Part shown: one piece after another, positions 45,064 to 50,025 of the stretch
How positions within the stretch are numbered: the stretch's first letter is position 1
Layout: each line of letters begins with the position of its first letter
From: Trichocoleus desertorum ATA4-8-CV12
GTDB taxonomy: Bacteria; Cyanobacteriota; Cyanobacteriia; FACHB-46
Length of the DNA: 64,000 nt
Direction of reading: 5' to 3'
NCBI GenBank assembly: GCA_019358975.1
Contig: JAHHIL010000013.1
Location: 1 to 64,000, forward strand
Notes under the pieces: generated by a model
What the model saw: only the letters and a program-made list of their open reading frames with translations
Databases searched by the model: none
Told to the model about the DNA's origin: nothing
Made by a program: the position numbers and the translations under genes

Positions 45064-47193
45064 ATGCCCCTTTATTGCAGTCAAAGACACGAAAACCCGG
45101 ATGCCAGCCGATTTTGCCATCTCTGTGGCGAAAAGCTACAAGCGCCTGTCAGCGTTGGTGTGTATGCTGGGCTGCTGCTTGGCGATCGCTATCGAGTCGT
45201 GCGCGAATTGGGACATGGAGGCTTTGGGCGGACTTACTTGGCAGAAGACCAAAACCGTTTCCAAGAGCCTTGTGTCCTGAAAGAATTTGCGCCTCAGGTT
45301 CAAGGCACCTACGCTCTGCAAAAAGCCGAAGAACTGTTTGAGCGAGAAGCAGGAATTCTCTACAAGCTGCAACACCCGCAAATTCCTCGGTTTCGTGAAC
45401 TCTTTCGCGCTACCCTCCCCGATCGCAGCCGCTTATTTTTAGTGCAAGACTATGTCGAGGGGCAAACTTACCGCGCCTTACTCGACACCCGCAAACTCCA
45501 AGGGCAGCGGTTCAATGAAGCAGAAGTAACTCAGCTCCTGTTGCAAATCTTACCGATTCTCGACTACATCCATTCTTTAGGCGTCATTCACCGGGATATT
45601 TCTCCAGATAACTTGATTTTGCGGAGCGCTGATTGGCTTCCAGTTTTAATTGACTTTGGCGGCGTGAAACAGGTTGCGGCTACTGTAGCCTCGCAGTTTC
45701 TGGCGCAGTCTGTAGGCAGTAGCGCTAGTTCTCCCACTCGCTTAGGCAAAATCGGTTACGCCCCCGATGAACAGTTACAGATGGGCATCGCCTCTCCCCA
45801 CAGCGACCTTTATGCCTTGGGTGTCACAATCCTAGTGTTGCTGACAGGCAAAGAACCGCCCGATCTGTTAGATAGCTACACCATGAGTTGGGTTTGGCGG
45901 CAGGAAGTCAGCCTCAGTCCCAAGCTCAGCGCCATTCTAGACCGGATGTTGGCTCAGCGCCCCAGCGATCGCTACCAATCTGTGCGAGAGGTACTACACG
46001 ACCTCAATAGCTATAACGTTCCGGTTTATGCTCCACCTGCTCCTGCCCCAGTTTACCCACCACCCGTCCAGACCCCTGCTGCGACTGTTGCCGTGGCTCG
46101 GCCACCCGCTCAGCCTGAAGCTGTCAGCAACTACACCGTTGCCCCACCCCCTGCTTATGCTCCCCCGAGCCGTGGCAACTCGTTTGGCTTCGGTAAAGTG
46201 CTCTTACTGTTGTTAGTGATCGCTGGAGCCGCCGCTGGAGGCTGGTGGTTGAGTAACCGCTGGCTAGGTGATTTGGCCGATCCCACCCCATCTGGAAACC
46301 CAACCGAACAACCCATTGTCGCTCCCAACAACGAACCCCCGCCCGCTTCAGAATTGTCTCAGGAGGAGCAAAACCGCAAGCAAGCCTTGGGCGATCGCCG
46401 CCGCAACTTAAGCGTGGACTATCAGTTCTTCGTGCGACTGGTGAATCAAGTGTTCTATGCCGAACACCCAGAGCTACAAGGCCGACAACTCAGTGCAGGC
46501 ACAGAAGATGCTGACCTACGCGCCCAATGGGATCAAAGCGCCAATCAACTGCTCGACAAATTAGAACTCGTTGGCCCAGAGACGCGTAGCCAGATGGGTA
46601 AATATGACCGAGGCGATCGCGATCGTTGGCGGGGCATTCTCAGCGGACTCAACCTCAGTAGCCGTGCCCTCTATACACTCGCGGATGCCAAGTTCTTCCA
46701 GCTGTTTCCCGAACAACAGGGGCAAGATTTTGTTAATCAACCGATTGGTCAGCTCTGGCACGCGATCGCGGCGGACGAGCTAAAAGCAGTGCTAGCAAAA
46801 ACCAGTCTAGAAGAAATCCAGTTTGCTAAAGGCTCATTTAGTCAGCAGGTTAGTGGAACTCTCGCTCCCGGTGAAGGCAAAGCTTATATTGCCCGACTTT
46901 CTCAAAATCAACTCATTCGGTTGAGCCTGCAAGCGGATCAAAATACCCTACTCTCTATTTACCCCCCTACCAGCTCTCAACCCCCATTGCTGGAAAACTC
47001 TGCTGAAACCACTTGGTCGGGTAAGTTGGCCCAAGATGGCTATTACGAATTTGTGGTAGTCTCAGGCGCGTCATCGCCTGTGACGTTTCAACTAAGCTTG
47101 GCGGCGGATAACGTCATCTCTACCCCTCCTAGCCCTGTTTCAGCGCCGCCTTCTCCCTCCCCTGACTCAGAACCAACCCCACCAGCACCTTAA
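45064..47193 (+). CDS. Ser/Thr protein kinase with zinc ribbon and extracytoplasmic domain
   Basis: 709 aa. Zinc ribbon at the N-terminus (C5, H9, C18, C21), kinase domain (about 42-318) with Gly-loop GHGGFGRT, ATP Lys73 in CVLKEF, HRD at 176-178, DFG at 197-199, so catalytically competent. A Pro-rich linker, one membrane helix (about 378-395), and a C-terminal extracytoplasmic part: a conserved helical region (LGDRRRNLSVDYQFFVRLVN ... FFQLFPEQQGQDF) and a PPC-like beta domain (GEGKAYIARLSQNQLIRLSL). Typical of cyanobacterial zinc-ribbon kinases. A catalytically dead relative follows 123 bp downstream on the same strand. Confidence 0.95.
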   Translation: MPLYCSQRHENPDASRFCHLCGEKLQAPVSVGVYAGLLLGDRYRVVRELGHGGFGRTYLAEDQNRFQEPCVLKEFAPQVQGTYALQKAEELFEREAGILYKLQHPQIPRFRELFRATLPDRSRLFLVQDYVEGQTYRALLDTRKLQGQRFNEAEVTQLLLQILPILDYIHSLGVIHRDISPDNLILRSADWLPVLIDFGGVKQVAATVASQFLAQSVGSSASSPTRLGKIGYAPDEQLQMGIASPHSDLYALGVTILVLLTGKEPPDLLDSYTMSWVWRQEVSLSPKLSAILDRMLAQRPSDRYQSVREVLHDLNSYNVPVYAPPAPAPVYPPPVQTPAATVAVARPPAQPEAVSNYTVAPPPAYAPPSRGNSFGFGKVLLLLLVIAGAAAGGWWLSNRWLGDLADPTPSGNPTEQPIVAPNNEPPPASELSQEEQNRKQALGDRRRNLSVDYQFFVRLVNQVFYAEHPELQGRQLSAGTEDADLRAQWDQSANQLLDKLELVGPETRSQMGKYDRGDRDRWRGILSGLNLSSRALYTLADAKFFQLFPEQQGQDFVNQPIGQLWHAIAADELKAVLAKTSLEEIQFAKGSFSQQVSGTLAPGEGKAYIARLSQNQLIRLSLQADQNTLLSIYPPTSSQPPLLENSAETTWSGKLAQDGYYEFVVVSGASSPVTFQLSLAADNVISTPPSPVSAPPSPSPDSEPTPPAP

Positions 47194-47315
47194 GTTTTTG
47201 CTGAAAATTCTACAAAAGCAGAAATAAAGTTACTACAAGCTTAAGATCCTCCCAACAGTTAGTTGGGTAGAGTTATGAGACTCTCTATGATTTGAGTGAA
47301 GTCTACCCGTGATCT

Positions 47316-49394
47316 ATGCAGCCATCCCTTTCTCTAGGCACCATTTTGCCAGGGCGATATCACTTGATCGACCTGCTGGAGCAAGGTATCTATCTGGCCG
47401 AAGATCAAACTCGGTTTAATGAGCTGTATCTGTTGCAAGAGTTCAGGCAGCGTCATCCTGGCGCTTACTCACTCGAAGTCATTCGGGGAGTCTTTCAACA
47501 AGAAGCAGCAGTGCTTTACGAATTGCAGCATCCTCAGATTCCTCGGTTTCGCGGCATCATCACGTATGCCGATTCCTTCTTTGTGGTGCAAGAGTATGTT
47601 GAGGGGGCCACTTGTCAAGCATGGCTGGAGGAGCGGTTAACCCAGAACCAGGCTTTCTCAGAAGCAGAAGTGATGCAGTTGCTTTGGCATGTGCTGCCTG
47701 TATTGCTGCATGTTCACAGTCGAGGCATTATTCATGGCAATCTCTCTCCAGCCAGCATTCTGATTCGGCAACGAGATGGCGCACCGATACTGACCAATTT
47801 CGGCTTAATTCGGGAAATCGCTACTGACTTAGAACTTTATTATCCTGGCCCTAGGAGGCATCTCAGCCCATCTGGCTACCTGCCTAAAGAACAACTGCAA
47901 TCTGGCACAGTTTATCGCAACAGCGATCTCTATGCCTTAGCTGCGACGGCGGTTGTCTTACTCACAGGCCAGGAACCTCGCATGCTCTACAATTCCCGGC
48001 GACAACTGTGGTCCTGGGAGTCTTGGGCGACGGTTTCACCAGGGTTCGCTCAGATTCTCAGTCGCATGCTGAGTGCCAAGCCGCAAACTCGCTATGCTTC
48101 AGCAGGTAAAGTGATTCGCGCCTTGCAAGCTCTGTTTGTCCAACCCATTTACATTCCCTCACCTTCTACCCTGGCGCTAGCTCCCCAACACAACAACCCG
48201 CCGCCTGTAGTAGCACCAGAACCAGCGTTAACAGCGCTAGAGCCAGAGCTAGCCCCTGAGCCAAAATTAAATTCAGAGCTAGTGCCAAGCTCAGCACCAG
48301 AGCTAGCGGCAGAATTAGCACCCGAATTAGCACCAGAAGTACAATCTTTTATTCCTCTATCAGACCTGACAGAAGAGGAAAGTGAGATTACTTGGATGGG
48401 TTCAGCTCTAGCAGTAGCCGCACTGTTACTCACTTTATTAGTGATGGGGATACTCGCTGGAACGGCTTGGCGATCGCTACGGCAAATGCAGCAAGCCCGC
48501 TCAGATTCCTCCGCCCCTACGGTGGTGCAAGCAGCGGCTCAGTCCCGCACTGCCACCAAATCTTCAGCCGCTCCTAGCCCAACTCCTAAGTCCGAGAATG
48601 ACATTCATGCAGCTTTGCGCGATCGCCGTCGGCGTTTGGGGGTGAACTATGACCTCTTTGTGCATTTAGTTGATACGGTTTTTTACACAGAACACTCAGA
48701 ACTCAACGACCGTCGTCTCAGCTTCGAGCCATCCGATCGAGCGTTGCGCCGCGAGTGGAATGCCACGGCAGAAAAACTACTCAATAAGCTAGAAACCCTT
48801 AGCGAAGAGTCCCGCAATCGCTTAGGACGCTACAGTCAGCAAGACTATGACCAGTGGGTAATGGGCCTAGAGCGCCAACGTCTCAGCCGTCCGACCTTTG
48901 CCCAGTTGGTGGATGCCAAGTTCTATCATCTGTTTCCAGAGCAACAAGAGCGCTATTTAGACCCCAACCGATTTGGTCAGGTCTGGTACGCGATCGCGGA
49001 GGAAACCTTCAAAGCGATCCAAGCAGGCTCTGCCTTTTCTATGCTCCAGCTTGGCCCTAAAAACCCTAGCCAAACCTTGACAGCCACTCTCAAGCCTGGG
49101 GAAGGCAAAGTTTACGTGGCCAATTTAAGCCAAGGGCAGACGATCCAAGTCGCCTTGCAAGCTCCGAGTAAAGGCACCCGGTTGTCTATTTATTCTCCCG
49201 ATCGCCGTTCCGCTGGTGCTCAAGCGCTGATTAACGACACACCCAAAACGAGTTGGTCGGGCACGCTACCCCGTCCTGGCTACTACGAAATTGTGATTCT
49301 TTCTAATTCACCCGAAATTATTCGTTATCAACTCAATCTAACCCTCCAATCTCAGACCGCCACGCCTCCTAACGAACCATCCTTTGACGGGTAA
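47316..49394 (+). CDS. Pseudokinase paralogue of the upstream Ser/Thr kinase
   Basis: 692 aa, same plan as the preceding gene minus the zinc ribbon: kinase fold, linker, one membrane helix (about 355-378), extracytoplasmic LRDRRRRLGVNYDLFVHLVD...HLFPEQQERYL region and PPC-like domain (GEGKVYVANLSQGQTI). The Gly-rich loop is lost (LLEQGIYLAEDQ), the ATP Lys is Gln41 (LYLLQEF), HRD is HGN (130-132) and DFG is NFG (151-153). All three catalytic residues being changed argues for a regulatory role. The linker has repeats of PELAPE. Its 3' end overlaps the opposite-strand gene by 26 bp. Confidence 0.93.
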   Translation: MQPSLSLGTILPGRYHLIDLLEQGIYLAEDQTRFNELYLLQEFRQRHPGAYSLEVIRGVFQQEAAVLYELQHPQIPRFRGIITYADSFFVVQEYVEGATCQAWLEERLTQNQAFSEAEVMQLLWHVLPVLLHVHSRGIIHGNLSPASILIRQRDGAPILTNFGLIREIATDLELYYPGPRRHLSPSGYLPKEQLQSGTVYRNSDLYALAATAVVLLTGQEPRMLYNSRRQLWSWESWATVSPGFAQILSRMLSAKPQTRYASAGKVIRALQALFVQPIYIPSPSTLALAPQHNNPPPVVAPEPALTALEPELAPEPKLNSELVPSSAPELAAELAPELAPEVQSFIPLSDLTEEESEITWMGSALAVAALLLTLLVMGILAGTAWRSLRQMQQARSDSSAPTVVQAAAQSRTATKSSAAPSPTPKSENDIHAALRDRRRRLGVNYDLFVHLVDTVFYTEHSELNDRRLSFEPSDRALRREWNATAEKLLNKLETLSEESRNRLGRYSQQDYDQWVMGLERQRLSRPTFAQLVDAKFYHLFPEQQERYLDPNRFGQVWYAIAEETFKAIQAGSAFSMLQLGPKNPSQTLTATLKPGEGKVYVANLSQGQTIQVALQAPSKGTRLSIYSPDRRSAGAQALINDTPKTSWSGTLPRPGYYEIVILSNSPEIIRYQLNLTLQSQTATPPNEPSFDG

Positions 49395-50025
49395 CAACGC
49401 GGTTAATCGGTGGATTGTTGGCCATAGAGTAAGCCATATTCAAAATATTTTGCCGCTCTCCTGAAAAGAAACTCACGGTGTACACTAAGCCATTTTGTTC
49501 CCAGATCACAGAAGAAAATCGAGAGGCAGGTTTAAGGCTAGAGCCTGGTAAGAAATGACCCTGCACTCCTTCTGCCAACTTAATCGGAGCCGCCGCAGCT
49601 TGATGTTTTTTTAGTTCGATCTGAGCACTTTCTGAGTTTTTACTCTCTACCGAGAAGCTGCCGATCAAGCAAGGCTGAGGGCCAATATCGCAAGTGAACA
49701 GCCCCACGGTCATACCAGGAGGCGACTGGGACGGAAACACTTTAACAATGAGTTCATCAATAAAATCTTGATCTCCTGGGCCACTCAAACTAATTTGCGA
49801 TGGCAGACGCATGACCAAATTTGGCGGCAAAGTCTGGCTGATCTGATCTAGATGGGGTCTAAAAATATCGGCAGGCACAGCAGCAGCTTTAGGGGAACTG
49901 CCACCCACCACTAAAGCCGCAGATAAAGCAGCAGAGGCAACTAAGCAGTAGCGACGCAATCGGCGGTAGATCACCGGAACTCCTGGCACTCCAAAGAAAA
50001 ATTGGGCTAGCAGTGACAAACTCAC
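49369..50025 (-). CDS. Exported protein, unknown
   Basis: 218 aa. The first 50 residues contain a signal peptide after a basic stretch (YRRLRRYCLVASAALSAALVVGGSSPKAAA), so the real start may be further in. The mature part is a single beta-rich domain with LPSQISLSGPGDQDF, a possible disulfide pair in FTCDIGPQPCLIG, and SSVIWEQNGLVYTVSFF. No family recognised. Located convergently with, and overlapping, the pseudokinase gene; a periplasmic partner for its extracytoplasmic domain is possible but unproven. Confidence 0.75.
   Translation of the reverse strand: MSLSLLAQFFFGVPGVPVIYRRLRRYCLVASAALSAALVVGGSSPKAAAVPADIFRPHLDQISQTLPPNLVMRLPSQISLSGPGDQDFIDELIVKVFPSQSPPGMTVGLFTCDIGPQPCLIGSFSVESKNSESAQIELKKHQAAAAPIKLAEGVQGHFLPGSSLKPASRFSSVIWEQNGLVYTVSFFSGERQNILNMAYSMANNPPINRVVTRQRMVR

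Follow-up and report, generated by a model that had tools for sequence, protein, structure and literature searches.

The window analyzed here is a stretch of 64,000 nucleotides from Trichocoleus desertorum ATA4-8-CV12 (contig JAHHIL010000013.1), in which two adjacent genes encode an active Hanks-type Ser/Thr kinase and, downstream of it, a related protein with degenerate catalytic motifs. We propose, with a probability of about 0.55, that the downstream gene belongs to an old family of cyanobacterial pseudokinases that cross the membrane once and would act as receptors or scaffolds able to pair with the active neighbor or with other partners. By its predicted fold and loss of motifs, the downstream protein is a Hanks-type pseudokinase, and it is predicted to be inactive. 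Its kinase domain still matches PF00069 at 82 bits, and its alpha-C Glu is the sole catalytic-motif residue left, the Gly loop being shortened by 4 residues (EQG--- vs GHGGFG of the active kinase). The intact catalytic motifs of the upstream kinase are GHGGFG, K73, E95, HRDISPDN and DFG. Sequence comparisons across the class indicate that the pseudokinases form one clade, whose members keep the kinase fold, the transmembrane helix and a duplicated helical tail under purifying selection. The upstream protein consists of an N-terminal Cys/His ribbon, a kinase domain, a Pro-rich linker, a transmembrane helix, the duplicated helical tail, and a PPC-like domain. The features of the locus are as follows (coordinates refer to the window):

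45064-47193, + strand: active Hanks-type Ser/Thr kinase, 709 aa (open reading frame, Pfam, motifs, model, orthologues throughout Cyanobacteriia)
45076-45126, + strand: Zn-ribbon-like motif of the active kinase, C5-x3-H..C18-x2-C21-G (sequence)
45190-45996, + strand: active kinase domain with K73, E95, HRD176-178, N183, DFG197-199 and activation-loop T225 (PF00069, 107 bits; motifs)
46198-46254, + strand: transmembrane helix of the active kinase, hydrophobic stretch VLLLLLVIAGAAAGGWWLS (sequence)
46366-46788, + strand: extracytoplasmic helical tail of the active kinase, a three-helix unit present twice (AlphaFold2 model; hhalign; profile A1)
46816-47112, + strand: PPC-like beta-sandwich of the active kinase (AlphaFold2, Foldseek)
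47316-49394, + strand: pseudokinase, 692 aa, with a ribbon-less leader, degenerate kinase domain, transmembrane helix, helical tail and PPC-like domain
47316-47360, + strand: N-terminal leader of the pseudokinase, MQPSLSLGTILPGRY, common to ribbon-less "MQPP" kinases
47379-47393, + strand: deleted Gly loop, EQGIY (alignment; AlphaFold2 shows a tight beta1-beta2 hairpin)
47436-47438, + strand: Gln41 replacing the beta3 Lys
47733-47756, + strand: HGNLSPAS replacing HRDxxPxN (catalytic Asp to Asn, loop Asn to Ser)
47796-47804, + strand: NFG replacing DFG
48399-48470, + strand: transmembrane helix of the pseudokinase (hydrophobic stretch inside modeled helix 360-394)
48594-49022, + strand: helical tail of the pseudokinase, with signatures DYDQW and DPNRFGQVWYAIAEE (profile A1, 190 bits; clade-specific residues)
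49068-49349, + strand: PPC-like domain of the pseudokinase, variable across the clade
49369-50025, - strand: convergent gene for a 218-aa protein, sharing 26 bp with the 3' end of the pseudokinase gene (outside the kinase system; orthology marker)

A sequence-only reading of the window had described the two genes as a kinase and its catalytically dead paralogue, and much of that description was borne out. Both frames, of 709 and 692 aa, lie on the + strand exactly where it had placed them, the motif alignment reads K73/HRD/DFG in the first protein and Gln41/HGN/NFG in the second, and the loss of the Gly loop aligns as a 4-residue deletion. It was also right that the two proteins have a transmembrane helix, a helical region and a PPC-like C-terminus in common: the extracytoplasmic halves of the two proteins are 41% identical and were modeled confidently.

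To place the pseudokinase among its relatives, a profile (A1) was built from the helical tail and searched against 390 genomes of the class. It matched in 237 of them, and in 40 of the 42 genomes of a second family, f16; outside f16 and the window's own family, the matches were mostly active kinases. Nearly every f16 genome carries a shorter relative lacking the HRD-Asp, with HRN, HGN, HQN, HEN, HQY, HQH, HGA or HCN at this position. A careful tree of 50 proteins, calculated without the catalytic columns, separated 17 pseudokinases, the window's among them, from the rest at a support of 100/100, and the catalytic state changes exactly once on this tree. A quick tree of 106 proteins likewise put the active and pseudokinase groups on opposite sides of one branch (support 94). 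By these trees, the pseudokinase clade spans the window's family and f16, with a single loss of the HRD-Asp at its base. This Asp is absent from all 31 clade members first tabulated, with Asn in its place in about 90%; about 65% retain the beta3 Lys, and the DFG-Asp is mostly Asn. The activation-loop Thr that is conserved in active kinases (T225) is gone from the pseudokinases, which have a tail signature of their own: Tyr 519 (94%), Pro 558 (97%) and Gln-Val-Trp-Tyr-Ala-Ile-Ala. The f16 pseudokinases often retain both the beta3 Lys and the Gly loop.

Conservation within the genus was examined in the window genome and two same-genus relatives. The pair, the gene order and a gap of 122-125 bp are kept in all three of these genomes of the order, and the degenerate motifs are identical in both relatives, except for HFG instead of NFG in one. 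Since the same pair, gap and motifs recur in both relatives, the degenerate state is not an effect of sequencing or chance. For the window genome and its farthest same-genus relative, the ratio of nonsynonymous to synonymous substitution rates (dN/dS) was 0.088 in the kinase domain of the pseudokinase vs 0.040 in that of the active kinase, and 0.126 and 0.113 in the two tails. The dead kinase domain is under constraint, at roughly half the strength seen in the live one. When both proteins were compared across one set of genome pairs, the pseudokinase evolved 1.9 times as fast as the active kinase in the kinase domain and 1.2 times as fast in the tail. The earlier suggestion of a pseudokinase under selection is strongly supported by the dN/dS of 0.09, by the single loss of the HRD-Asp in one clade and by the absence of this residue from 31 of 31 tabulated members. 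Neither finding that would have spoken against it was made: in close relatives the downstream copy is present and intact, and the change at the key residue, the HRD-Asp, is not a random one, although the other motifs drift.

The structure predictions used alignments of five and two sequences. The tail and PPC part of the active protein (AlphaFold2, two sequences) was modeled with a predicted local distance difference test score (pLDDT) of 87 and a predicted template modeling score (pTM) of 0.83. The two halves of the helical tail align to each other (hhalign E 6.6e-9), revealing a duplicated three-helix unit, which has no model in Pfam or NCBIfam; a sequence search of the PDB found no relatives of the tail, and the fold search with it returned mainly matches to the PPC part. 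In some active kinases (e.g., locus L045, G000:C38) the first tail unit occurs alone. The best Foldseek results for the beta part were PliG (4dzg, E 8.5e-8) and a collagenase PPC domain (5sv5, E 1.7e-4), and the Pfam PPC model gave no match at E up to 1. The full model of the pseudokinase (pLDDT 71) shows a complete kinase fold, in which the activation loop is disordered and a tight hairpin takes the place of the Gly loop. Its kinase domain is nearest to PknB and PknI, at TM-scores of about 0.78-0.82 by target. PknB dimerises via its N-lobe.

The origin of the pseudokinase turned out to differ from a simple duplication of its neighbor. When the two genes of the window's genus were forced into one clade, as a recent tandem duplication requires, the topology was rejected (approximately unbiased [AU] test, p 7.4e-5). 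A distinct group of kinases, termed MQPP, starts with MQPPIPxGTxLQNRYRL, has active motifs and is ribbon-less. When ribbon-less kinases were added to the trees, the pseudokinase domain branched with MQPP kinases and not with the tail kinases; the support was moderate, 92/76 in one alignment and 83/76 in a second. The leader pattern is present in 27 of 30 pseudokinases and 20 of 23 MQPP kinases vs 5 of 80 active tail kinases, and the ribbon, found in 49 of 80 active tail kinases, occurs in none of the 30 pseudokinases and none of the 23 MQPP kinases. The helical tail was found in none of the same 23 MQPP proteins; the four MQPP C-termini that were read contain two PPC-like stretches each. Loci L265, L268, L257 and L259 encode widespread ribbon-less MQPP kinases with tandem PPC-like stretches after the transmembrane helix. 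The pseudokinase is thus seen by us as a probable chimera, supported though not proven, of an MQPP-type kinase domain and a neighbor-type extracytoplasmic tail, and it probably never had a Zn ribbon. The sequence-only reading had counted the ribbon, the Gly loop and the catalytic residues as three losses from the neighbor's type, a view that was dropped after the comparison with MQPP kinases. Its motif losses stand; a recent tandem copy does not, and the loss of the ribbon is probably wrong because the whole clade and its nearest kinase relatives are ribbon-less.

The census of f16 showed how often the active partner is missing. Both genes are present in 19 of the 42 genomes, the pseudokinase only in another 19, the active kinase only in 0 and neither in 4; the motifs were read in most cases, and a few members of genus g70 were assigned from length and tail match. 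The pseudokinase-only genomes include one on a single contig (G189) and one on 3 contigs (G304). The sequences suggest that the active partner was lost at least twice, in the g75/g133 group, which keeps the Lys, and in a lineage with VLEE for the Lys motif. In the VLEE lineage (genera g70 and g43) the pseudokinase is stripped further, the alpha-C Glu being gone, and in g70 the activation loop as well. Partner-less pseudokinases are still under purifying selection, with a dN/dS of 0.11-0.15 in g70 and of 0.27 in one g43 pair. Where f16 genomes have both genes, five (G162, G236, G322, G072 and G299) show the active-then-pseudo tandem, and in 14 of the 19 the genes do not form a tandem, with distances such as 63 kb or 749 kb. 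Some tandems consist of two kinases that both look active (L092, L117, L121, L142, L228 [f32] and L229 [f27]); in these f32 and f27 pairs a short PPC-less kinase precedes the one with PPC, opposite to the order in the window.

In the mechanism that we propose, the extracytoplasmic tail, with the PPC-like domain where present, would sense or bind a partner in the envelope, and the dead kinase domain would serve as a cytoplasmic protein-binding module. Where the active neighbor is present, the pseudokinase might pair with it through the like tails and/or through PknB-like contacts of the kinase domains. It may also serve other partners, since it outlives the loss of the active neighbor. Some observations weigh against this reading. 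Several genomes without the partner are assembled to draft level, and most f16 members retain the beta3 Lys and might still bind nucleotides. The derivation from MQPP kinases has a bootstrap support of 83-92%, and the AU test did not reject the alternative topology (p 0.26 and 0.064). A bolder version, in which several of the approximately 35 Hanks kinases per cell share the chimera as a transmembrane co-receptor or hub, so that it is kept and stripped after loss of the partner, is conceivable, and we hold it only tentatively.

The proposal made by the sequence-only reading, a dedicated allosteric regulator that forms a transmembrane heterodimer with the adjacent active kinase and either activates or represses it, draws on the active-then-pseudo tandem in all three genomes of the genus and in five f16 genomes, on the same tail type in both proteins, on the absence of any f16 genome with the active gene alone and on the structural nearness of the kinase domain to the N-lobe dimerizer PknB. 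The five f16 tandems keep this idea alive where both genes exist. It is not the general function, however, because 19 of 42 f16 genomes, single-contig G189 among them, keep the pseudokinase without an active tail kinase, and the two genes lie apart in 14 of the 19 f16 genomes that have both. A dedicated heterodimer with the neighbor may therefore hold where both genes exist and cannot be the family's sole function; as the full account of the protein we consider it somewhat doubtful, a little more so than the hub. It is less likely still that the selected function resides in the extracytoplasmic tail, with the kinase domain being mainly a folded cytoplasmic anchor or dimerization block. The partner-less lineages do drop the activation loop, alpha-C and beta3 Lys and preserve the GQVWYAIA half of the tail, the rise in rate is greater in the kinase domain than in the tail, and G121 also encodes a transmembrane and tail protein devoid of a kinase domain. 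Nevertheless, the degenerate kinase domain has a dN/dS of about 0.07-0.15 in most pairs, equal to or below that of the rest of the protein, and is hence itself constrained. Atypical or residual catalysis, i.e., another transfer reaction or a Mg-independent phosphotransfer as in CASK, would fit the frequent retention of the beta3 Lys and Gly loop in f16, but the HRD-Asp is missing clade-wide and the loop Asn nearly always, and the window protein also lacks the Lys, the DFG-Asp and the Gly loop, which makes such an activity improbable. As to a decaying duplicate of the neighbor, the pseudokinase does evolve faster than the active copy; yet a dN/dS of 0.09-0.15, intact frames in both families, a single ancient clade and the rejection of a common clade with the neighbor (AU p 7e-5) leave it hardly any credence, and decay into a pseudogene was ruled out by dN/dS and conservation.

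Next to the pseudokinase family, some other proteins deserve mention. The protein of G121 (L220:5471-6577, - strand) is 369 aa long, consists of a transmembrane helix and the helical tail and has no Pfam match; this genome has a pseudokinase without an active kinase, and L220 represents the tail on another N-terminus. In genus g82 of family f13, orthologues of the active neighbor carry HRN in place of HRD (L103:7397-9481, L145:7345-9426, L147:7285-9330 and L148:7198-9282), with the Lys, loop Asn and DFG all intact; by their sequences, this is a recent loss of the catalytic Asp within one subclade, independent of the pseudokinase clade. Active tail kinases in L253 (G033) and L255 (G248) appear as two overlapping frames broken inside the tail, which may reflect frameshifts or errors of assembly.

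The gap between the two genes (47194-47315) contains an inverted repeat, CCCAAC-N5-GTTGGG, and TTGGGT-N17-TATGAT, both largely kept in the three genomes, with one repeat base differing in G002. The latter element is possibly a separate promoter. A scan of the gap for promoters and terminators detected nothing, and its conservation (84%) is no higher than that of other intergenic regions nearby (84-91%), so a conserved private promoter is not upheld. On the other side, the convergent 218-aa protein (no Pfam match) has a counterpart beside the pseudokinase in the f16 genome G017, with 52.6% identity, and this common neighbor independently supports the orthology of the pseudokinases across families.

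Bacterial pseudokinase families were reviewed in 2025 (ActPs1-3, GLW, CP1, DYD and DLHK; PMC12599244). The pseudokinase resembles several bacterial ones (EssB/YukC, MviN/ActPs3, ActPs2, GLW) in its degenerate catalytic motifs and, in several of them, a C-terminal transmembrane helix, and EssB has a known membrane scaffolding role (PMC12599244). These families differ in being actinobacterial, firmicute or proteobacterial and in their other diagnostic changes, and none has been described as having this duplicated helical tail or as being encoded next to an active kinase that shares it (PMC12599244). ActPs2 is marked by beta3 Lys to Arg, HRD-Asp to Asn, deletion of DFG and a large activation-loop insertion (PMC12599244); the HRD to HRN change is common to both, whereas the clade described here has Gln or Lys at beta3, an undeleted DFG and an activation loop shorter than that of its active relatives. 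CP1 is the only reviewed family tied to cyanobacteria, occurs in proteobacteria too and is degenerate in about 40% (PMC12599244). Despite the cyanobacterial occurrence that they share, the window pseudokinase is not CP1, because CP1 has no transmembrane helix and is fused to a COG3899 ATPase, unlike the window protein with its modeled transmembrane helix and no further Pfam domain. A 2007 survey of cyanobacteria listed five kinases without the HRD-Asp, including SpkE (Slr1443), which lacks kinase activity; it left out 17 proteins lacking catalytic domains and contains no such pseudokinase family (PMC2176072). In SpkE and the four others the catalytic Asp is likewise missing, and they are not known to share this tail. 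PknB and PknI of Mycobacterium tuberculosis, the best structural matches, are also single-pass membrane kinases, but they are active and have PASTA domains (PknB) or other extracytoplasmic parts instead of this tail. Our literature search, mostly of openly accessible papers, found no description of the pseudokinase family. A search of named genomes gave a single locus, whose three related kinases lack this tail. In Leptolyngbyaceae cyanobacterium clean351 (L061:5824-10015), three related kinases are encoded consecutively in frames that overlap slightly; the second (340 aa; DQGESG, HQD) lacks the C-terminal part.

The ribbon of the active neighbor matched the DZR and 4-Cys-prefix models weakly, both under the cut-off (NF045510, 14.1 bits vs a cut-off of 24; the motif of the active neighbor is CxxxH..CxxC). 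SpkB of Synechocystis resembles the active neighbor in having a Cys-containing N-terminal extension before a Pkn2-type kinase domain, a likeness drawn from published descriptions, and control by thioredoxin is known for SpkB only (PMC10651672, PMC11863333). By analogy, the redox-controlled, Cys-rich N-terminus of SpkB (PMC10651672) may serve as a pointer to the role of the ribbon.

Bacterial pseudokinases have reportedly been little explored by experiment, and the reviewed families hold no cyanobacterial membrane pseudokinase (PMC12599244). A widespread tail domain, built from a three-helix unit that occurs twice, emerges from the analysis and had no model in the libraries searched. The pseudokinase can be compared directly with active relatives bearing the same extracytoplasmic tail. 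Genomes with both genes, genomes with the pseudokinase only and the f32 genomes with two active copies constitute a natural series, so the question of whether the pseudokinase is a regulator or an independent scaffold is directly testable.

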